A program made the position numbers and the translations under genes. Shown here one piece after another: positions 2,885-30,668 of a stretch of DNA of 31,871 bases (within the stretch, counting starts at the first letter, position 1; every line of letters begins with the position of its first letter). This stretch comes from a virus. The stretch lies in the IMG/VR virus record IMGVR_UViG_3300042484_000240, positions 1 to 31,871 of that record, one strand, 5' to 3'. The notes beneath the pieces were generated by a model. That model saw nothing but the letters and a program-made list of their open reading frames with translations, searched no databases and had not been told where the DNA came from.

Positions 2885-3319
2885 ATGACTTACAACCAAT
2901 TAATAACAACAATAACAAGCCTGTTGCAAAGCCATGCAATGATAGAGACGGCAAAGCACACAACCCCAAAAGAATGGTTGCTAAGAGATGAGCAGCCAAT
3001 TTATCCAATAGCTTGTTTTTCTGTTAATTCGGGAACTATGAATATAGGGAGAGAACAAGTTTTTACTGTTCAATTTTTCTTTTTAGATAAAAGCGGAAAG
3101 GAGGCAGAATTTGAAAACGATGTTATAAGCGACCAAATACAAACTGCTTCTGATATATTGAGCCTTATGAGAACAGGAAGGAATAGTTATTCAATAGATG
3201 ACAACGTTTCATTCAATGCAATATCGGATAAGTACGAAGATTATTTAGCAGGGATAGAATACACAATTAATATTTCAACACAAAACGAATTTACAGGATG
3301 CAACGTTCCTACATTATAA
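2885..3319 (+). CDS. Probable tail terminator / tail-completion protein
   Basis: 144 aa of mixed alpha/beta character, placed after the portal and connector genes and before the fibre gene. An N-terminal helix (LITTITSLLQSH) is followed by beta strands (EQVFTVQFFFLDKSG), a central helix and a last strand (AGIEYTINIST). This layout resembles tail-terminator or tail-completion proteins of siphoviruses, which cap the tail tube at the neck. The ATG at 2885 is used; the 44 bases before it hold no convincing gene. The end overlaps the fibre start by 22 bases. The role is inferred from fold pattern and position, not from a recognised motif. Confidence 0.4.
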   Translation: MTYNQLITTITSLLQSHAMIETAKHTTPKEWLLRDEQPIYPIACFSVNSGTMNIGREQVFTVQFFFLDKSGKEAEFENDVISDQIQTASDILSLMRTGRNSYSIDDNVSFNAISDKYEDYLAGIEYTINISTQNEFTGCNVPTL

Positions 3320-6300
3320 TTTTATTAATACTTTTATCTTTTGGACTAAAAGCGCAGGTTTACCAAGCTATGCCACAGGCTGGATATGGGCCTGTAAAAA
3401 GATTTCTTACTGATAGTGTTTTAACTATTCCAACTGGTATAAATTCTTTAAGAAATATAACAGGAGGAAGGGATGCAGGACAAATAAGATGGAATACAAC
3501 TGATAGCGGTTTTTATGTTTATAGCGGTTATCAATGGATTAAAATAAATATTGATAGTGTTTCTTTAAGCAATAGAATTAATGGCAAATTAAATATTTCA
3601 GATACTGCCACAATGCTTAGTGCTTACATGAGGAAAACCGACACATTAAGTCTTTCAAATAGAATTAATTTAAGGGTCAAATATACAGATACTGCATCAA
3701 TGCTTTCGGTTTATTTACGCAAATTAGATACTGCAAGTTTATCTGATAGAATAAATACAAAACAAGACCCTATAACATTAACTACAACAGGCACAAGCGG
3801 ATTATCTACCCTTACAGGGGCAACTTTAAATATTCCAAATTATGGAGGTGCTTTAACTGCTTATGTACCTTATAGCGGTGCAACTACTGATGTAACTTTA
3901 GGAGCAAGAAATTTAACAGGAACTTTGCTGAATGCAGATTATTCTTTACAAATAAAAAATGAGGTAGGTGCTGGCGGTGCTTCAACATTGGGTTATACTT
4001 CTATAAGTTCAAACAATAGTGGATATTATTTTTATACAAGTTATAGCGGTGGTCAAAAGGGTGCTTATTTTAATTACCCTGCAAGTGGTACAACATTCTC
4101 TTATAACTTGCCTGTTCGTGCAGGTACAATCGCATTGGTAGAAGATACGGTTAGTTTATCAAATAGAATCAATGCAAAAATAGGTGCAACCGATACAGTT
4201 TCTTTATCCGATAGAATTAATCTAAGGGTAAAATATTCGGATACCGCTTCTATGCTTTCACCTTATTTAAGGAAAGCAGATACAAGTTCTTTGAGTAATA
4301 GAATTAATTTAAAACTTAATATAAGTGATACTGCTTCAATGTTATCTAATTATCAAACTGCTATAAATGCTCGTGTAAAATACACAGATACTGCGGCAAT
4401 GTTAGACCCTTATTTAACTGCTGCGGTTACAAGTGTAGGGTTATCAATGCCAGTTGCTTTTAATGTCAGCAATAGCCCTGTAACAAGCACAGGAACGATT
4501 GCAGTAACAGGTGCAGGAACGGCGGCACAATATATTAGGGGTGATGGTCAATTGGCTACTTTGCCATCAGGCGCAAGCGGTGGTTCTTCGGTTGATTATT
4601 ATTTAAATGGGGGAACAAGTCAGGGAACTATTGGAGGAAGTACTTATTACGAAATGAGTAAAATTCCAGTTATAGGAACTAACGCAGATTTTAACAGAAC
4701 TAACGCACAAGGTAACGGATTAATTGCTCAATTTATTACTGATGTTGCAGACCCTAACAGATTAGAAATACCAGCAGGAGCATGGAATTTTGAATTATTT
4801 TTTAATGCAAGTTCAAATGGAGGTTCACCATCATACTATATTGAATTATTAAAGTACGATGGTACTAATTTTACTTCTATTGCTAGTGGTTCGGCTATAC
4901 CTGAATTAATTACAAGCGGAACAACTATTGATTTATATTTAAGTTCTTTAGCAGTTCCCTATACAACATTATCCGTTACTGATAGATTAGTGATAAGGGT
5001 TTACGTTGTTACAAGTGGGAAAACAATTACTCTACATACACAAGATGGACATCTTTGTTTAATTATTACAACATTTGCAGGGGGTGTAAGTTCATTAAAT
5101 GGGTTAACTGCAAATACACAATATTTGGCGGTTGATACGGTAGGAAGTGATTTTAATATTAACAGTTTAGTTGATACACATACTTTTAATTTACCTACTG
5201 CTTCTGCAACAAAACGAGGTGCTTTAAAGTCTGCGGATTGGTCAACCTTTAATGGTAAAATGAATTATGCAGATACTGTAAGTTTGAGTAATAGAATCAA
5301 TACAAAATTAAATAGTAGTGACACTGCTTCGCTATCAAATCGTATCAATGCAAAAGCAGACGCATTAAGTGGAACAACAAACACAGTACCTAAATTTACT
5401 TCAGCAACTACGATTGGAAACAGTAATATTAAAGATGATGGAAGTGCGGTAAGTATAAGCACTACTGCTGGTTCAAATGGTGCGCTTCAAGTTGGTAATT
5501 ATAATGGTAATATTTTAATGAATACTACCAATAGTAATGGAGGTTTAATATTTAAAAATACTTCATCTTCTAATAAATTATGGGATATAAGTTCTTTTAA
5601 CAATGATTTAAATTTTAACGAATCAAATATTTCACCAACTGTTATGACTTTAAAGGCAGGTGGAAATGTAATAATATCAAGTTTAATTGGTAGTGGCACT
5701 CGAATGGTAGTAGCAGATTTAAATGGTGTATTATCTACACAAGCAATTAGTAGTGATACAACTTCATTAAGTAACCGAATCAATTTAAAATTAAATATAA
5801 GTGATACTGCTTCTATGCTTAGCAGTTACCAAAGCGCAATTAATTCTAAGCAAGCAGCAATAACATTAACTACCACAGGCACAAGTGGAGCAGCAACCTT
5901 CAGTTCTAACACTTTAAATATACCACAGTATCAAGCTGCGGGTACTTATGTAACAAGTGTTACAGGAACTTCTCCAATAGTATCAAGCGGAGGTGCTACA
6001 CCCGCTATTTCTATTCCTGCTGCAACAGGTTCAGTAAATGGATATTTAAGTTCTACCGATTGGACAACTTTTAATAATAAATCAAATACTAGCGGAACGG
6101 TTACAAGTGTAGCTGCTTTAACATTAGGCACAAGCGGAACGGATTTATCTAGTACAGTAGCAAATGGTACTACAACCCCTGTAATTACTTTAAATGTACC
6201 AACTGCATCAGCAACAAATAGGGGTGCTTTATCAAGTGCAGATTGGACAATATTTAACGACAAGTTTAATCTACCAAGTTTAACAAGTGGTTCAGTACTA

Positions 6301-6996
6301 TTTAGTAATGGAACAACTATTGCTCAAGATAATGCTAACTTCTTTTGGGATGATACAAATAATAGGTTAGGCATTGGAACTATTGCTCCTGTTGCTGCTT
6401 TAAATGTATTAAAAACATCATCAACATTATATGACCCATTATCTGAAGCAAGCAGATTTCCAACTGCCTCACAAATTTATTTAACAAATTTAAATGCAGC
6501 TAGTAATTCTTTTGCAGGTATTACGTTTCAATTAACAAGAGCATCAGGAATTAATAGCAATGCTTATATAGGGGCGATTTCTACAACGGTTAACCCTGAT
6601 ATTGTTTTTGGTCAAAGAGATGGTTCAAATACTTTATATGCTGAAAAAATGCGTATTTTTTCGGATGGCAATGTTGGAATCGGAACAGGAGCAACTAATA
6701 ATGCTTCAAAACTACAAGTCGCTGGAAACCTATCATTAACAACTGCTGGTAATAAATTATTAATAGCAACAGGAACTAATGCAAGTGCAGGAACAACGGC
6801 GGCAATGACTGCTGGAACAATTACAGTATCTACTACTGCCGTATTAACAGGTAGTATTATTCAATTAACTGCCCAAACAACTGGAGGTACGGCAGGAGCA
6901 TTAAGGGTTAGTTCAAGAACTAATGCAACATCATTTGTAATAACATCAAGTTCAGCATTAGACACATCAACGGTTGGTTGGGTAATTATTAACTAA
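3298..6996 (+). CDS. Large tail fibre / receptor-binding protein with a signal peptide
   Basis: 1232 aa, the longest gene here. Residues 1-20 (MQRSYIIILLILLSFGLKAQ) form a typical Bacteroidota signal peptide with a KAQ cleavage site, unusual for a virion protein. Residues 84-156, 283-375 and later segments carry repeats of the type DTxSLSNRINLKLNISDTAS, a fibre-shaft motif. Residues about 430-595 form a compact beta-rich domain (SVDYYLNGGTSQG onward). Near the end are GIGT segments (RLGIGTIAP, NVGIGTGA), common in tail fibres, then a C-terminal tip with TAGTITVSTTAV, LRVSSRTNATSF and TSTVGWVIIN, which resembles known fibre-tip receptor-binding domains. Fibre identity is strong; the signal peptide is real in sequence, its use unknown. 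Confidence 0.85.
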   Translation: MQRSYIIILLILLSFGLKAQVYQAMPQAGYGPVKRFLTDSVLTIPTGINSLRNITGGRDAGQIRWNTTDSGFYVYSGYQWIKINIDSVSLSNRINGKLNISDTATMLSAYMRKTDTLSLSNRINLRVKYTDTASMLSVYLRKLDTASLSDRINTKQDPITLTTTGTSGLSTLTGATLNIPNYGGALTAYVPYSGATTDVTLGARNLTGTLLNADYSLQIKNEVGAGGASTLGYTSISSNNSGYYFYTSYSGGQKGAYFNYPASGTTFSYNLPVRAGTIALVEDTVSLSNRINAKIGATDTVSLSDRINLRVKYSDTASMLSPYLRKADTSSLSNRINLKLNISDTASMLSNYQTAINARVKYTDTAAMLDPYLTAAVTSVGLSMPVAFNVSNSPVTSTGTIAVTGAGTAAQYIRGDGQLATLPSGASGGSSVDYYLNGGTSQGTIGGSTYYEMSKIPVIGTNADFNRTNAQGNGLIAQFITDVADPNRLEIPAGAWNFELFFNASSNGGSPSYYIELLKYDGTNFTSIASGSAIPELITSGTTIDLYLSSLAVPYTTLSVTDRLVIRVYVVTSGKTITLHTQDGHLCLIITTFAGGVSSLNGLTANTQYLAVDTVGSDFNINSLVDTHTFNLPTASATKRGALKSADWSTFNGKMNYADTVSLSNRINTKLNSSDTASLSNRINAKADALSGTTNTVPKFTSATTIGNSNIKDDGSAVSISTTAGSNGALQVGNYNGNILMNTTNSNGGLIFKNTSSSNKLWDISSFNNDLNFNESNISPTVMTLKAGGNVIISSLIGSGTRMVVADLNGVLSTQAISSDTTSLSNRINLKLNISDTASMLSSYQSAINSKQAAITLTTTGTSGAATFSSNTLNIPQYQAAGTYVTSVTGTSPIVSSGGATPAISIPAATGSVNGYLSSTDWTTFNNKSNTSGTVTSVAALTLGTSGTDLSSTVANGTTTPVITLNVPTASATNRGALSSADWTIFNDKFNLPSLTSGSVLFSNGTTIAQDNANFFWDDTNNRLGIGTIAPVAALNVLKTSSTLYDPLSEASRFPTASQIYLTNLNAASNSFAGITFQLTRASGINSNAYIGAISTTVNPDIVFGQRDGSNTLYAEKMRIFSDGNVGIGTGATNNASKLQVAGNLSLTTAGNKLLIATGTNASAGTTAAMTAGTITVSTTAVLTGSIIQLTAQTTGGTAGALRVSSRTNATSFVITSSSALDTSTVGWVIIN
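3550..5832 (+). repeat. Dispersed fibre-shaft coding repeats (SLSNRIN / SDTASMLS units)
   Basis: Four blocks inside the fibre gene encode variants of the same unit, about 30 residues: 3550-3766, 4144-4431, 5268-5356 and 5753-5832. The unit reads roughly DTxSLSNRINLKL followed by NISDTASMLSxYxRK. The blocks are separated by different beta-rich domains, so the repeats may act as shaft segments and as points where homologous recombination swaps domains. The DNA copies differ at many codon third positions, so they are not very recent duplications. Confidence 0.8.
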
Positions 6997-18762: not shown

Positions 18763-19402
18763 TATTAATAAGTTAAAAAATAATACTGGACAAATAGAAG
18801 GGTTGCCTAAAAATCCAAGATTATTGAAGGATGACAAGTTTAAAAAGCTAGTTAAGTCAATTAAGGATGACCCTGAGATGTTACAATTAAGAGAAGTTAT
18901 TGCTTATCCATTAAATAATGAATTAATTGTTATTGCTGGAAATATGAGATTAGGTGCTTGTAAAGAATTGGGACTAAAAGAAATACCTGTTAAAATACTT
19001 CCGCAAGATACATCAGTAGAAAAATTAAAAGCATATACAATTAAAGATAATTTAGGATATGGCGAATGGTCTTGGGATGATATTGCAAACGAATGGGATA
19101 TGGAACAACTTGAAGATTGGGGGATGGATTTACCTTTGTTTGATAAGATTGACAATATTGAAGATGGAGAAGAAATAGAGTTTGAACAATCGGTACAATT
19201 AGAACCACCAAAAGAATATATATTAATTATGGCTGAACCAAATAGCGTTGAATGGGAAGAGTTAAAAGAAACATTAAAATTAAAAATAGTAAAGAAAGGA
19301 GGGTATAAAAAGGGAAGTCCATTTAATGCAGTAGGATTAGAAAGGGTTTTATATTGGAATGATTTTAAAAACAGATTAAATGTTAATAGCAATACCGAGT
19401 AA
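18743..19402 (+). CDS. ParB-like nuclease domain protein
   Basis: 219 aa. A ParB/Srx-type N-terminal domain is indicated by LPKNPRLLKDDKFKKLVKSI, the VIAGNMRLGACKELGLKEIP segment (usual form GNxRxxAxxxLG) and VKILPQDTSVEKLKAYTIKD. After it comes an acidic middle (DNIEDGEEIEFEQ) and a C-terminal alpha/beta part of unknown fold (YILIMAEPNSVEWEEL). Phage relatives act as adaptors or nicking enzymes and often neighbour DNA-modification genes. The overlap of 23 bases with the next gene, a DNA glycosyltransferase-type protein, suggests that they work together. Confidence 0.8.
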   Translation: MISQVISINKLKNNTGQIEGLPKNPRLLKDDKFKKLVKSIKDDPEMLQLREVIAYPLNNELIVIAGNMRLGACKELGLKEIPVKILPQDTSVEKLKAYTIKDNLGYGEWSWDDIANEWDMEQLEDWGMDLPLFDKIDNIEDGEEIEFEQSVQLEPPKEYILIMAEPNSVEWEELKETLKLKIVKKGGYKKGSPFNAVGLERVLYWNDFKNRLNVNSNTE

Positions 19403-20096
19403 AAATAGAGCAGGAGATACAACAACAAATAAAATTCTGCCTAATATTGGAACTTTTTTTGTACCATTAAGCCAAGTGCATCAGTATAGTTATATTCAAA
19501 ATGTAGTTGGAATACCAAACGAAATTCAGGGTATTACAAATACAAGAAATTGGATATTAAAAAACACAAAAGAAAATTGGGTAGTTTTTTTGGATGATGA
19601 TGCAAAAAATGTAGGTTATACTCAACTAGGAAGAACACAAGCAAAAAAGATAGAAATCAGAGATGAGGGATTTTGGGCAGAAGAATTTATAAAAGCATTT
19701 GATTTAACTGAACAATTAGGCTATAAAATGTGGGGGGTAAAAACTGAAGCAGCACCACGCTCAGTTTATCCATATAAACCAATTATAACAAAAACATATT
19801 TAACCGCTTCCTGCATGGGAATGGTTAATGATGGAGAGTTTTATTTTGATGAAAATTTTAAAGTAAAAGAGGATTATGAAATATGCTTAAGACATATTGT
19901 TAAATATGGAGGTATTTTAGGAATTAGATATTTACATTGGGAAAATGAACATTGGGTAACTGAAGGAGGATGCAAAGATTATAGAACAATAGAAATGGAA
20001 AGAAAAGCAATAAAGGATTTAAATAAATTATATCCAAATATGTTAAGAAGTGCTAAAAGGAAAGCAAATCAATTTACAATACAGTTAAATTTATAA
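19380..20096 (+). CDS. TET-associated (TAGT / GREB1-like) glycosyltransferase
   Basis: 238 aa. The start IAIPSKNRAG, the DDD metal site (residues 72-74, WVVFLDDDAK), the block RSVYPYKPIITKTYLTASCM, then KEDYEICLRH, WENEHW and GGCKDYRT match the glycosyltransferase family that Iyer and co-workers described next to TET/JBP-type base oxygenases and proposed to glycosylate modified bases in phage DNA. The fold is GT-A-like. Here no TET/JBP gene is visible, while a ParB-like gene overlaps upstream. The likely role is sugar transfer onto a hydroxymethylated base to shield DNA from nucleases; the acceptor is not proven. Confidence 0.8.
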   Translation: MLIAIPSKNRAGDTTTNKILPNIGTFFVPLSQVHQYSYIQNVVGIPNEIQGITNTRNWILKNTKENWVVFLDDDAKNVGYTQLGRTQAKKIEIRDEGFWAEEFIKAFDLTEQLGYKMWGVKTEAAPRSVYPYKPIITKTYLTASCMGMVNDGEFYFDENFKVKEDYEICLRHIVKYGGILGIRYLHWENEHWVTEGGCKDYRTIEMERKAIKDLNKLYPNMLRSAKRKANQFTIQLNL

Positions 20097-21185: not shown

Positions 21186-22175
21186 ATGAATATAATTGGA
21201 TTAACACATAAGGAATCAGGATGCGGATATCATAGAGTAATATTGCCCCTTGCTTTTATGGATGACATTAAAGGTTATGTAACCAACTTTATAACGGAAG
21301 ATAAGACCGATAATTGGGATATTTTAGTTTATAACAGGATATGCCAATACGATTTAAATTGGAGCAAAACTAAGGAACTGCTTGGGTGTAAGGTAGTTAT
21401 GGATATTGACGACCATTGGAAACTACCTTTTAATCATTTGAATTATGAGGCATACCAAAGCATGGGTGAAAGGATAGAACGTAACTTAATGATGGCAGAT
21501 TTAGTTACGGTTACTAATTCTAACTTATTGAATAAAGTAAAGCAGTTTAATGATAACGTGGTAGTAATGCCCAATGCTTTACCGTATGGAATTAATCAGT
21601 TTACGGATATAAGGGTAGCATCTGAAAAGGTAAGATTATTTTGGTGTGGTTCGGTAAGTCATGAGAACGACATTAAGATATTGAGAGAACCACTAAAAAG
21701 ACTGACAGGAAATATTCAAATGGTAATGGGTGGGTATAACGATAGCGACCCATTAACTAAATCTATTTGGGATAGAATGTTTTCAATGTTTGCTGGTAGG
21801 CATCCATCGGTTAAACTACCATCAACAAGTCCTACTCAATACATGGATATGTATAATTATGCTGATATTGTTTTAATACCTTTAGAAGATTCAGAATGGC
21901 ACGGATGCAAAAGCAATCTTAAGATATTAGAAGCAGCAGCAAAGAGATTGCCTGTTATCTGTTCAAATGTTGCACCTTATAATATAAATACTGATGCTCC
22001 TGTGTTATGGGTAAATAATCAAAAAGACTGGTTTAAATATATTAATCTATTAATCAATAATCCTAGCTTAAGGGAAAATTTAGGCAACGAACTTTATGCG
22101 TGGGCGTCCAAAAGGTACAACTTCAAAGAAATTAATCAACAAAGATTTGATGCCTACAAAAGCATTATTACTTGA
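21186..22175 (+). CDS. GT-B fold glycosyltransferase (GT4-like)
   Basis: 329 aa. The N-terminal domain includes DILVYNRICQYD and VVMDIDDHWKLPF; the C-terminal domain has the sugar-nucleotide site region HGCKSNLKILEAAAKRLPVI with the E of ILEAAA and the CSNVAPY turn, as in GT4 enzymes. It has no signal peptide. In a phage it could add a second sugar to modified DNA bases, glycosylate virion proteins or alter host surface sugars. Its place two genes after the TAGT-type enzyme favours the first idea. The 3' end overlaps the next gene by 80 bases. Confidence 0.82.
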   Translation: MNIIGLTHKESGCGYHRVILPLAFMDDIKGYVTNFITEDKTDNWDILVYNRICQYDLNWSKTKELLGCKVVMDIDDHWKLPFNHLNYEAYQSMGERIERNLMMADLVTVTNSNLLNKVKQFNDNVVVMPNALPYGINQFTDIRVASEKVRLFWCGSVSHENDIKILREPLKRLTGNIQMVMGGYNDSDPLTKSIWDRMFSMFAGRHPSVKLPSTSPTQYMDMYNYADIVLIPLEDSEWHGCKSNLKILEAAAKRLPVICSNVAPYNINTDAPVLWVNNQKDWFKYINLLINNPSLRENLGNELYAWASKRYNFKEINQQRFDAYKSIIT

Positions 22176-22906: not shown

Positions 22907-23280
22907 AGAAACAACCACATGGAGGATTCCTTAATCGTTATGAGAAAGGAGCAGCATGGAAAGGTAACAGGAATGGCAGACCTAGAAAGTATATAACTGA
23001 ATTAGCACCAATGGGTTATAAGAACGCACAGGTAATGGATTGCATTCAGGTATTAATGGCAATGACTGTGGATGAATTGAAAGCAGTTTGGGATAACAAA
23101 GAAAGCACAATATTAGAAAAGACTTTAGCAAATGCGTTAATTAAATCAATGGCTAAAGGTTCGTTGTATTCAGTAGATACTTTATTAAGCAGGGTATACG
23201 GTAAGCCAAAAGAAACAACGGCAGTAATTCAGGATAGCAAAATAGAAGTGGTATTTGTAAAGGGTAAAACCATTTTATGA
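22897..23280 (+). CDS. terS: Terminase small subunit-like protein
   Basis: 127 aa. The GNRNGRPRKYI segment near residue 24 resembles the N-terminal basic region of terminase small subunits and DUF5681-type proteins. The centre is helical (QVMDCIQVLMAMTVDELKA) and GSLYSVDTLLSRVYGKPKET is the conserved tail of this group. It recognises the packaging site and recruits the large subunit. It sits directly before the large terminase with an ATGA overlap, which supports the call more than its sequence does. Confidence 0.75.
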   Translation: MSLEKQPHGGFLNRYEKGAAWKGNRNGRPRKYITELAPMGYKNAQVMDCIQVLMAMTVDELKAVWDNKESTILEKTLANALIKSMAKGSLYSVDTLLSRVYGKPKETTAVIQDSKIEVVFVKGKTIL

Positions 23281-24431
23281 TTTTAGAGTTACCAGAAGCG
23301 CATAAAAATCAAACTAAAATACTTGAATCACAGGCAAGATTTAGAGTTGTAATGTGTGGCAGAAGGTTTGGTAAGTCTGAATTAAGTCAGGTTGAAATTA
23401 TTAGCAATGCAATTCAGGGAATGAATGTTGCCTACATCACTCCAACATATAAACTAGCAAAAACATTCTTTGAGAAATTAATACAATGCGTACCATTTGA
23501 AAACAACAAAAGCGATTTAACTATTCATTTTCCTAATGAAGGAACAGTTGAATTTTATACAGGTGAAAGACTAGATAATCTAAGGGGTAGAAAATTTCAT
23601 TTAGTAGTAATAGATGAAGCCAGCTTTATACCTAACTTAGAAGATGGCTGGCTAAATTCAATCCGACCTACCTTAACCGATTATCAAGGCAGAGCATTAT
23701 TCCTATCAACCCCACGAGGCAAAAACTATTTTTATTCTCTTTACATGAAGGGTGGGCAAAGAGATTGGGAAAGTTTTAAGTTTACTACTTATGACAATCC
23801 TTATATTTTAACATCAGAGATTAATGATGCAAAAGCACAGTTGCCATCAGTTGTATTTGAGCAAGAATACATGGCTAACCCTATGGAAAATGCAGCCAAT
23901 CCATTTGGTAGTGAACACATTACAAAGTGTACTTGTAATTTAAGTTACAATGAACCCATGTACTTTGGTATTGATTTGGCAAAGTCTGTGGATTGGACTG
24001 TTATAATAGGATTAGATAGCGATGGTAAAGTAAGTTACTATAAACGGTTTCAAAAGGACTGGTTACAGACAAAAGAAACAATAAGACAGATACGAAAGCA
24101 CAAACATATTTTTATTGATAGTACTGGAGTTGGTGATGCGATTGTAGAGGACTTGCAAAAGCACTTCAATGATATGACAGGGTTCAAATACACATCTACC
24201 AGCAAGCAGCAGTTAATGGAAAGCCTTGCATCATCAATCCATAAAGGCGAGATAGGATTCCCCGAAGGAGCAATTAAAGACGAATTAGAAATATTTGAAT
24301 ACTTATTTACATCAACTGGGGTAAGGTATTCTGCACCATCAGGATTCCATGATGACTGTGTTAACGCTTTAGCATTAGCTAATAAATGCCGTATTGAAAA
24401 CAAAGGAAGCGGTCAATATCATTTCATTTAA
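23277..24431 (+). CDS. terL: Terminase large subunit (ATPase and nuclease)
   Basis: 384 aa. ATPase: Walker A variant CGRRFGKS (27-34), Walker B VVIDEAS with Asp113-Glu114, coupling segment FLSTPRGKN. RNase H-like nuclease: Asp233 in YFGIDLAKSVDW, Asp281 in FIDSTGVGDA and Asp359/Asp360 in GFHDDCVNALALA. This is the packaging motor that cuts and pumps DNA into the prohead. It is compact compared with terminases of about 450-600 aa but has every motif. It opens the late operon; tail genes follow rather than head genes. Confidence 0.96.
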   Translation: MILELPEAHKNQTKILESQARFRVVMCGRRFGKSELSQVEIISNAIQGMNVAYITPTYKLAKTFFEKLIQCVPFENNKSDLTIHFPNEGTVEFYTGERLDNLRGRKFHLVVIDEASFIPNLEDGWLNSIRPTLTDYQGRALFLSTPRGKNYFYSLYMKGGQRDWESFKFTTYDNPYILTSEINDAKAQLPSVVFEQEYMANPMENAANPFGSEHITKCTCNLSYNEPMYFGIDLAKSVDWTVIIGLDSDGKVSYYKRFQKDWLQTKETIRQIRKHKHIFIDSTGVGDAIVEDLQKHFNDMTGFKYTSTSKQQLMESLASSIHKGEIGFPEGAIKDELEIFEYLFTSTGVRYSAPSGFHDDCVNALALANKCRIENKGSGQYHFI

Positions 24432-24462: not shown

Positions 24463-25110
24463 ATGACAATTAAGCAATTTCAGGAGTTGTACTATGTGGC
24501 TACTTCAACCGATATGGACTTTGATAAGTCAATTAAGATGGTAGGTATAGTAACAAACAAAACACCTGAGCAGGTGGAAGCAATGTCAATGATTCGTTTT
24601 AATTTACTTTGTGCAAGGGTACATAAAGAGTTTAAAATATTTGAAAGGGATTTGTTAAAAAGCAAACCTAGAAAGATAGTAAGGGTAGGAAAGCGATTTT
24701 ATAAAATTAATTACGATGTAGCAAAGGCAAAGGCATCAACCTATGTAGAAGTAGCAACCTTTAGCACAGATATAATTCAGAACTTGCACAAAATAATGGC
24801 TTCAATAGTTACACCAGTTAGATTTAGATGGGGTAAATGGGTAGAGGTAGACCATGAAGATTTAGCAAAAGAAATGGAGGCAATGGATTTTGCGGCTGCT
24901 TACCATGCAGCGGTTTTTTTTTACACTCTATTCAACGTATCAATGCAAGTTATCCAGCCTTATTTGGTGGCAGAGATGACAAAGAAAGGAATATCGAAGG
25001 AGAAAGCGATGGAGGTATTGACGATTTCACAAAACATTTTGGATGGCTTTACAATGCCAAGATGGTCGCAGACTTCGAAAGAATATCTATTGAATCGGTT
25101 TGGAATTTAA
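24463..25110 (+). CDS. Tail assembly chaperone, unshifted (G-type) product
   Basis: 215 aa, mostly helical (TIKQFQELYYVATSTDMDFD start). In Bacteroidota phages a protein of this type follows the terminase and precedes the tail genes. Tail assembly chaperones help load the tape measure into the tail tube. At 24914-24922 the gene reads through a run of nine T, and an uninterrupted -1 frame begins there, making the normal reading the short form. The role is inferred from position and the frameshift architecture. Confidence 0.7.
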   Translation: MTIKQFQELYYVATSTDMDFDKSIKMVGIVTNKTPEQVEAMSMIRFNLLCARVHKEFKIFERDLLKSKPRKIVRVGKRFYKINYDVAKAKASTYVEVATFSTDIIQNLHKIMASIVTPVRFRWGKWVEVDHEDLAKEMEAMDFAAAYHAAVFFYTLFNVSMQVIQPYLVAEMTKKGISKEKAMEVLTISQNILDGFTMPRWSQTSKEYLLNRFGI

Positions 25111-25193
25111 AAGTAATTAATTTTTTAAATGATTTACTTTATTTAAAATTAAAACAGGATAAGGATAATGAGTATCTCAAAAAGTCAGCTTGA
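24463..25193 (+). CDS. Tail assembly chaperone, -1 frameshifted (GT-type) product
   Basis: A -1 slip on T9 (GTT TTT TTT becoming TTA) joins the first 153 residues to 90 residues of the -1 frame, 243 aa in all, stopping at TGA 25191. The extension reads DDFTKHFGWLYNAKMVADFE, then IESVWNLKVINFLNDLLYLK and ends KDNEYLKKSA. The FGW...NAK...FLNDLLYLK pattern is the shape of T domains of chaperones of this phage group. The -1 frame has no stop over 270 bases of AT-rich DNA, which is unlikely by chance. It overlaps the next gene by 26 bases. Confidence 0.75.
24914..24922 (+). promoter_or_regulatory. T9 slippery site for -1 programmed ribosomal frameshift
   Basis: Frame 0 is GTT TTT TTT TAC, containing a perfect X-XXY-YYZ heptamer of T. 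It is the only point within the common reading of the two chaperone forms with strong slip potential. No clear downstream pseudoknot was traced by eye. Confidence 0.65.
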
Positions 25194-25800
25194 TAATTTT
25201 GCTAAAATAGGTAAGTCAGATTACACTATTGATGATACTTATGTGCCTGATTTAGATAATACAACATTGGCTTTTTTTGAACAATATGCTAAAACATTTT
25301 TTGAAGAAATACAAATAGAACTAAAAGCAAAAAAAGTAAAAAGAGCAAGCGGTGATTTAGCAGATAACACAAAGGTAGTTGCAAATGAGGATGGAAGCGG
25401 TATAAAGATATCAATGATTAACTACTATGATTTTGTAAATAAAGGAGTTAAGGGTGTTGACGATTATTCAAATGCCCCAAATAGTCCGTATCAATATAAA
25501 ACATATGGAATGCCCAAAAAGGCAAGGGATGGAATTAAAAAATATATCCAAAGTGGGAAAGCGAGATTAAGATTAGAAACACCTAAAAAAACAATAATAG
25601 GCGCACAAAAAAAGAGTCCTTCAATTAATTCACAAGTTCAAACAATGGTTTATCTAATTAAGAAATGGGGTATAAAAACAACTAACTTTTTTGATAACGC
25701 AACGGAAAGAGTAACAAAAGATTTAAGTGAAGATTTAATGTATCTAATTGGAAAAACTATAATAGTAAAAATTGGGCAACCTAAAAAGAAAAGTAAATGA
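25168..25800 (+). CDS. Hypothetical structural protein, possibly neck or tail completion
   Basis: 210 aa. Its start overlaps the frameshifted chaperone product. The central segment INYYDFVNKGVKGVDDYSNA with QYKTYGMPKKARDGIKKYIQ resembles the HK97 gp10-like family of phage structural proteins (usual form ..YA..vE.G..). N- and C-terminal parts are helical. It lies between the chaperone and the first tail protein, so a virion or assembly role is likely. No motif settles which. Confidence 0.5.
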   Translation: MSISKSQLDNFAKIGKSDYTIDDTYVPDLDNTTLAFFEQYAKTFFEEIQIELKAKKVKRASGDLADNTKVVANEDGSGIKISMINYYDFVNKGVKGVDDYSNAPNSPYQYKTYGMPKKARDGIKKYIQSGKARLRLETPKKTIIGAQKKSPSINSQVQTMVYLIKKWGIKTTNFFDNATERVTKDLSEDLMYLIGKTIIVKIGQPKKKSK

Positions 25801-28973: not shown

Positions 28974-30668
28974 ATGGCAACGGAAAAACAAATATTAGCT
29001 TATGAGATTACACTCGAAGCGGCAAAAGCAGAGGGTTCAGTAGGTAAATTTAAAAAGGAATTAAAAGATGCCAATAACGAATTGCAATATATGGCAGAGA
29101 GGTTTGGTGAAACTTCTATTGAAGCACAAATCGCAGCAAAAAAAGTTGCAACATTAAAGGATGCAATTGGAGATGCAAAAGCAGTAGCAGATTCATTTAG
29201 TCCTGATAAAAAGTTTGTTGCATTAGGTGGTGCTTTACAAGGTGCAGTTGCTGGATTTAGTAGTTTGCAGGGCGTTATGGGATTATTTGGTGCGGAAAGT
29301 AAGGATGTAGAAAAGATGATTTTAAAAGTTCAAAGTGCAATGGCTTTGCAACAAGGAATAAGTGGCGTAATTGGTGCAATGGATAGCTTTAAATTATTAG
29401 GTGCTGAAGTAGTAAAGAGCAATTTATTTTTAACTATTAATAATTCAGTTACTGCCATATCAAGTGGTTTAATGAAATTGTTTGGGATATCAGTTGATAC
29501 AACATCAATGTCATTTAAGCTACTTAAAGGTGCTATTGCAGCAACTGGGATAGGTTTATTAATTATCGCAGTTGGAGAGTTAGTAAGTAAATTTCAAGAA
29601 TGGTCACAAGCAGCGGAAAATGCAGCAAAAAAACAAAAAGATTTTGATGCAGCACAAGTTCAATCTTCAAAAGATGCGGTGGCTTCCGTTACACACAGAT
29701 TATTATTAGAAAAAAATCTTGCAGTTTCAAAAGCTACTACTGAAGAACAAAAATTTAAAATTGAACAAGACTTTAAACGGAAATCAATAATTCTTTTACA
29801 ACAACATTATGAGAAAACAAAAGGATTAAATGATAAAGAATCAGAAAGTGCAATTGGTACAATACAAGATATAAATAATGCTGGGCAAGTTGCAGCAGAA
29901 AATGAAAAACAAAGGGTAATAAAAGATAATAAAGAAAAAGCAAAAGAAAGTGCAAGATTAGAAAAAGAAAAAAAAGAAAAACAACAAGCAGCAACTGATA
30001 AATATTTTGAAGATGCAAGAAAGCAAGGCGCAAAAGATTTAGAAATAGCAGCAGCAAAAACAAAAGACCAAGATGAACAAATAAAAAAAGATGAATTACT
30101 AGCAGCATCAAAAGTTACAATTAGTTCAAATGCTGCATTTGCTGTAAGAGATGCCACTAAAATGTCAGTTGAACAAACTAATGAACTAAATAAAAAATAT
30201 AATGATATTGATTTAGCTGATGCAAAAATATTACAAGATGCAAAAGTAAAAGCAACAGTTGATACTTTAAATATTGTAGGAGATATTCTAGGAAAGGAAA
30301 GCGCAGCAGGAAAAGCAATAGCGATTAGTAGTGCGTTAATAAATACATATTTAGGTATATCAGCAGGGGTTAAACTTGGATACCCAGCAGCTATCCCAGC
30401 AGTATTGGCGGCAGCAGCAACAGGATTTAAAGCAGTTAAAAACATCATAGGTACTAAATTACCAAAGGGTGGTGGGGGAGGTGGTAGCGTTCCATCAATG
30501 GGCAGTATGGAAGCACCGATTAAACCACAAACACAAACTACAACATTATCAACTGCATCAATTAACCAAATAGGTGTAGCAAGTTCAAGGGCATTTGTAT
30601 TGGAAACCGATGTTACTAATAATCAAGAAAGGATACAAAGATTAAATAGGGCGGCAAGGATAAATTAA
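28974..30668 (+). CDS. Tape measure protein
   Basis: 564 aa. An N-terminal helical, coiled-coil region (EGSVGKFKKELKDANNELQY onward) leads to hydrophobic segments (FVALGGALQGAVAGFSSLQG; GAIAATGIGLLIIAVGELVS), then a long charged helix rich in Lys, Gln and Glu (about 210-400), and another hydrophobic stretch ending in GGGGGSVPSMGS. That is the usual tape-measure architecture. At roughly 0.15 nm per residue the tail would be about 85 nm, so a siphovirus-like morphology is likely. Confidence 0.88.
   Translation: MATEKQILAYEITLEAAKAEGSVGKFKKELKDANNELQYMAERFGETSIEAQIAAKKVATLKDAIGDAKAVADSFSPDKKFVALGGALQGAVAGFSSLQGVMGLFGAESKDVEKMILKVQSAMALQQGISGVIGAMDSFKLLGAEVVKSNLFLTINNSVTAISSGLMKLFGISVDTTSMSFKLLKGAIAATGIGLLIIAVGELVSKFQEWSQAAENAAKKQKDFDAAQVQSSKDAVASVTHRLLLEKNLAVSKATTEEQKFKIEQDFKRKSIILLQQHYEKTKGLNDKESESAIGTIQDINNAGQVAAENEKQRVIKDNKEKAKESARLEKEKKEKQQAATDKYFEDARKQGAKDLEIAAAKTKDQDEQIKKDELLAASKVTISSNAAFAVRDATKMSVEQTNELNKKYNDIDLADAKILQDAKVKATVDTLNIVGDILGKESAAGKAIAISSALINTYLGISAGVKLGYPAAIPAVLAAAATGFKAVKNIIGTKLPKGGGGGGSVPSMGSMEAPIKPQTQTTTLSTASINQIGVASSRAFVLETDVTNNQERIQRLNRAARIN

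Follow-up and report, generated by a model that had tools for sequence, protein, structure and literature searches.

Organization of the locus

The window analysed here, a stretch of 31,871 bases, is an IMG/VR virus record in which the gene for the terminase large subunit (TerL; 23277-24431, plus strand) lies immediately upstream of an open reading frame at 24463-25110 on the same strand, here called frame 0. This frame encodes a protein of 215 amino acids that has homologues in other viral contigs and is referred to below as the short, or G-like, form. Inside it lies a run of nine T residues (T9; 24914-24922, plus strand), the only T run of at least nine in the window, which frame 0 reads as GTT TTT TTT TAC. 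The run contains the in-frame heptamer T_TTT_TTT at 24915-24921 (plus strand), that is, in the phase required for a tandem -1 slip. From the slip onwards, the -1 frame continues on the plus strand for 90 codons plus a stop (24921-25193) and reads LHSIQRINASYPALF...FGWLYNAKMVADFE...FLNDLLYLKLK; residues 1-153 of the short form joined to this T-like extension would yield a form of 243 amino acids (153 + 90). Taken as a whole, the open stretch of the -1 frame spans 24858-25193, beginning 5′ of the slip; the plus-strand stretch 24922-25107 is dual-coding, with 62 codons that belong to the short form alone and are read in the -1 frame as well. For the -1 extension, the ORF list of the window holds no ORF of at least 60 amino acids with a start of its own (ATG, GTG or TTG). 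An earlier, sequence-only reading of this DNA had placed the T9 run, the frame-0 stop at 25110, the end of the -1 frame at 25193 and the 90 codons exactly where we find them; recomputing the frames also returned its two product sizes of 215 and 243 residues and, as far as ORFs of at least 60 amino acids are concerned, agreed with its remark that the extension has no start codon of its own.

Conservation of the T run among relatives

Relatives of the gene were collected from viral contigs by a protein scan (28 loci), an alignment scan (46 loci), two scans with alignments of the T domain (the best 80 of 195 and the best 80 of 213) and a scan with the T part of the cultured phage P12024S (the best 80 of 321), with many loci shared between scans. 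In all loci of the first sets, which range in frame-0 identity from 100% to about 32%, the T run is found at identical codons. The later sets hold 126 distinct contexts, gathered with no condition on an in-frame T7, of which 121 carry T9, four T10 and one T8, and none a run shorter than eight T. Pooling gave 237 related viral loci, for which an in-frame T7 was a condition of entry and which fall into 71 groups under 85% DNA identity; the run is T9 in 65 groups and T10 in the other six, with T8 in one contig (L132), whose heptamer is still intact. Among the loci examined, no interrupted heptamer (TTTTTTC, GGGAAAG) takes the place of the T run. The sequence-only reading had proposed a comparison of homologous loci, and its claim withstood it well: across the 237 loci the T run, its frame and the -1 amino acids are conserved, and the opposite case, an intact frame 0 with neither a conserved T run nor a conserved -1 extension, clearly does not occur among them.

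Two single loci deserve mention on their own account. L118 carries T10 and the nearly identical L117 T9, a difference that reflects either true variation in run length or a faulty assembly where the contig ends. In a further T10 locus (L073:847-1584) the long form of 246 amino acids lies in one frame and the G-tail frame holds three stops. Here a single lineage appears to have lost the two-product switch, which suggests that such loss can happen.

Selection on the two frames

Substitution patterns were followed along the gene in 20 relatives. In frame 0, synonymous variability (pS) stands at 0.705 upstream, drops to 0.000 over codons V151-F153 and rises again to 0.374 in the overlap, and the heptamer is free of synonymous change in all 20; in the -1 frame, pS is 0.293 in the overlap and 0.633 past the frame-0 stop, where pN is 0.246. 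This order matches what would be expected for a single coding region, a slip signal, a dual-coding region and, finally, a single coding region in the new frame. In addition, when the frame-0 codons are shuffled synonymously, the -1 overlap stays open with a mean probability of 0.013 (0.008 for the window gene), the relatives being mutually non-independent and multiplied probabilities of this kind indicative only. All 42 distinct relatives examined for this have an open -1 frame, and none of them an open +1 frame. At the level of sequence, these data show both predicted products to be under purifying selection and the T run to be under constraint at the nucleotide level. In other words, sequence and selection concur in a gene from which two products would be made from one start through a -1 switch inside the first ORF. 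Synonymous variability is already low (0.18) at codons A149 and A150 (24907-24912), possibly a context effect on slippage.

Proposed slippage by the ribosome or by RNA polymerase

Two mechanisms might generate the switch. The first, to which we give about an even chance and a narrow preference over a ribosomal slip, is the addition of one U by RNA polymerase at T9. The second is a purely ribosomal -1 slip, in which the tRNA-Phe in the P and the A site would re-pair one base back on U_UUU_UUU; we regard it as somewhat less probable than an even chance. Judged on sequence patterns, polymerase slippage appears at least as likely as ribosomal slippage, and both may contribute. The sequence-only reading had claimed a programmed -1 frameshift: its site at T9 and its open -1 frame hold, while for the level of the putative slip the comparison of relatives leans slightly to RNA polymerase.

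To our knowledge, the known G/GT pairs use ribosomal slippage. Specifically, the lambda G/GT switch is ribosomal, this being its established route (PMC5009743), and in E. coli U_UUU_UUY belongs to the efficient motifs (PMC4066793). An in-frame heptamer of the X_XXY_YYZ type, as needed for ribosomal -1 frameshifting, is present in the window gene and in all relatives, and even the T8 locus retains it complete. From the ribosomal standpoint, moreover, nine Ts would arise because a Val, Leu or Ile codon and a T-starting codon flank the heptamer. The phase of T9 is uninformative as to the mechanism, since every T9 includes one in-phase heptamer.

Several observations weigh against the ribosome as the only agent. 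The run is never interrupted, though a C as the last base of the heptamer would be silent in both frames: with T to C at 24921, the frame-0 codon still specifies Phe, and the -1 codon still specifies Leu as TTA/TTG becomes CTA/CTG. TTC accounts for 29% of the Phe codons upstream of the slip, U_UUU_UUC is an efficient ribosomal motif naturally used in bacteria (PMC4066793), and TTTTTTC stands at the slip heptamer in none of the pooled 237 loci. The background of run lengths in 394 other coding sequences of related phages (378 kb) is also informative. T runs of at least eight are missing there (0 observed, 9.7 expected), and A runs of at least nine are about tenfold under-represented (3 observed, 29.6 expected); in-phase T7 heptamers are mildly reduced (35 against 54 expected), and in-phase A7 heptamers number 67 against 57.5 expected. 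That is, longer runs are avoided elsewhere and in-phase T7 heptamers are not specially so; by these counts, the avoided feature is run length and not phase. Avoidance of long runs could stem from indel mutation of the DNA instead of transcription.

A hairpin or pseudoknot downstream of the slip site is a common stimulator of ribosomal -1 frameshifting. Downstream of T9, RNA folding shows no excess (mean z -0.1 to -0.6), the consensus energy is weak and there is little covariation; the lack of a conserved stimulatory structure may count against a purely ribosomal slip, though none is obligatory. A match to the CnfY thermometer of Rfam was discarded as chance (25.9 against 130 bits).

Transcriptional slippage, for its part, calls for about nine A or T without interruption, and such a run is present at the locus, with T9 in the window gene and 8-10 T in every relative. 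In Thermus dnaX and Shigella mxiE, nine consecutive A or T give multi-frame products (PMC1088944), and the likeness makes the T9 of the window a candidate transcriptional slippage site, although these two genes are not phage tail chaperones. The more comprehensive proposal, tail chaperones of a large phage group whose ratio would be set by slippage of RNA polymerase on T9, with alternative conserved C-terminal domains in the two frames, we hold to be slightly less than evenly balanced. The invariant T run provides a clean test of whether ribosome or RNA polymerase governs the ratio of the two forms, a ratio that decides tail assembly in lambda.

Tail module, protein family and putative chaperone role

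Three genes, encoding 210, 382 and 676 amino acids, separate the slip gene from a gene for a tape-measure-like protein of 564 amino acids (28974-30668, plus strand). The first of them (25168-25800, plus strand) shares its first 26 nt with the end of the -1 frame and is a conserved neighbour. The 564-residue protein is related to P12024S_49 (BLASTP 6e-9), which in turn matches the tape measure family phrog_58 (E 2.2e-4). Its position is conserved, and the order TerL, slip gene, downstream genes and tape-measure-like gene is kept in nearly all relatives. The tape-measure-like gene lies on the same strand as the slip gene, about 3.9 kb downstream, and the latter therefore belongs to a tail module. 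G/GT genes usually, though not universally, stand between the major tail protein and tape measure genes. The slip gene adjoins TerL instead and is not placed directly between two such genes.

The window protein itself has no significant match in Pfam or PHROG. Its homologues do match two profiles, weakly: Phage_TAC_7 (PF10109) in 14 of 30 homologues (E up to 0.1, best 1e-4) and phrog_166, 'tail protein', in 17 of 30 (best E 1.2e-4). The Phage_TAC_7 matches shown in detail cover only some 40-50 N-terminal residues and lie below the curated cut-off (L064, for example, scores 19.9 bits against a cut-off of 25); by this measure the slip gene family is not filed as a member of PF10109. The frame-0 protein is modelled as helical (pLDDT 86.7) and the T extension as a helical hairpin whose first third is poorly predicted. 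A Foldseek search of BFVD with the model returned 29 matches below 1e-3, none of known function, and matches named tail assembly chaperone appeared only above this threshold. Among annotated phages, tblastn found no direct homologue of the window protein, and two scans of cellular genomes found none either; solved structures gave neither a useful sequence match nor a convincing fold match, and profile comparison with HK97 gp13 gave no match. VIA-align rows of up to Z 6.4 were set aside as generic helical arrangements.

Synteny, helical models and the weak Phage_TAC_7 and phrog_166 matches suggest a tail assembly chaperone of the G/GT type as the best reading of the slip gene, and lend support to the sequence-only reading, which had compared it with the lambda-like tail chaperones. 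We consider a tail-chaperone role very probable, and hold with much the same confidence that it is exercised by two products, whatever the level of slippage. In such a scheme a single gene would give rise to two tail-assembly chaperone forms with 153 residues in common. Standard decoding would produce the G-like form of 215 amino acids, and some expression events would slip at T9 into the -1 frame and yield a GT-like form of 243 amino acids with a T domain. If lambda is a guide, binding of the tape measure protein might fall to the common part and recruitment of the tail-tube subunit to the T domain, with the frequency of slips setting the ratio of the forms; we infer the chaperone role, the binding partners and a useful slip rate. 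The 62 post-slip codons of the short form are conserved at the protein level and predicted to form helices, which points to two products with alternative C-terminal domains from the same DNA.

It is also conceivable, if unlikely, that the two-product switch is real and that the protein acts not as a tail assembly chaperone but in packaging or at a different step in the assembly of head or tail. Such a role would suit the position of the gene, which adjoins TerL and not the tape-measure gene, and the missing family match of the window protein. The homologues, however, match two independent tail-chaperone or tail profiles, the gene is syntenic with a tail module, and the two-form -1 design is a hallmark of G/GT genes.

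Comparison with known systems

The slip gene is real and conserved, and is a variant of the known G/GT design, a kind to which it adds a large unlabelled phage family. It shares with lambda G/GT two products, here predicted ones, from one start, a -1 switch at an in-frame heptamer, a T domain and a place in the tail module. The differences are equally clear. In lambda, GGGAAAG is followed by about five codons of G, whereas in the window gene T9 is followed by 62 conserved codons of the short form; the lambda gene lies between those for the major tail protein and the tape measure, whereas the window gene comes right after TerL; and the two have no common family match. The likeness to G/GT drawn by the sequence-only reading thus stands for the two forms and the tail module and fails for the short form, which has a conserved C-terminus of 62 residues of its own, unlike lambda G; its remark that the slip run and the family differ from those of lambda was correct. 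A long dual-coding overlap with alternative C-terminal domains sets these genes apart from lambda G. Phage P2 likewise makes E+E' by a -1 shift; Phage_TAC_7, the family of P2 E and Mu gp41, is weakly matched by the homologues mentioned above and unmatched by the window protein.

The closest cultured counterpart is found in the Nonlabens phage P12024S, whose host is Persicivirga, and in P12024L. Genes 38 and 39 of these phages (L153, JQ823122.1, 23136-23830 in P12024S) follow TerL, carry T9 at the equivalent place and have a -1 extension. The slip site of P12024S reads ATA CTT TTT TTT TAT, the extension is T-like, and the frame-0 protein I6R9M9 is among the significant structural matches to the window model (E 2.4e-6). 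Its G tail is shorter, with an overlap of 76 nt, and its sequence is too divergent for confident pairwise profile detection. The two genes are annotated as separate hypothetical CDSs and look, from their sequence, like parts of one slip gene; the word 'unannotated' in the sequence-only reading applies to P12024S. A slip would explain a gene split by annotation, including in this cultured Flavobacteriia phage, and the T run may serve as a handle for locating tail modules in otherwise unannotated phages. The host of P12024S, together with the missing obvious Shine-Dalgarno sequence 5′ of 24463, leads us to infer a Bacteroidota host for the metagenomic loci.

The same annotation, in which the second half is a separate CDS of 55 amino acids with its own start, is what speaks for a T-like region that is never fused and instead forms an overlapping gene in its own right, with translation from a start codon inside the gene or after reinitiation. 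This is very improbable, as no start codon in the window yields at least 60 amino acids of the extension, the -1 amino-acid conservation begins exactly at the T run and the slip codons show zero synonymous change. A homopolymer indel from sequencing or assembly, or a decaying gene, is a negligible prospect already refuted by the comparative data: homopolymers are error-prone, as the T10 and T9 of near-identical L118 and L117 recall, but the same run and frames recur in the 237 loci, which come from many samples, and in the genome of a cultured phage, with purifying selection on both frames.

More distant candidates were sought in Flavobacterium phage 6H and the Duneviridae, which are retained as a lead only: the fold match to 6H is marginal (E 0.09) and profile comparison with the Leef_1 protein gave no match. 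Phages of the 6H group have one long ORF at the gene. The 6H gene itself (L154, KC959568.1, 10352-10927, minus strand) encodes 191 amino acids and ends early, while its near-identical counterparts in FPSV-F7 and 23T reach 293 amino acids, 6H differing from them over about 30 bases at that point; L323, L328, L324, L325 and L327 are grouped with this observation. The 6H-type genes are possibly single-frame counterparts of the slip gene, candidate homologues at most.

Other genes of the window

Elsewhere in the window, the stretch 3298-6996 encodes a fibre-like protein of 1232 amino acids in which DTASLSNRIN-like motifs recur and which ends in a K1-lyase_C domain at its C-terminus (Pfam E 1.4e-18). 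Two glycosyltransferase-like genes (19380-20096 and 21186-22175; phrog_842 and phrog_7162) lie upstream of the packaging genes.
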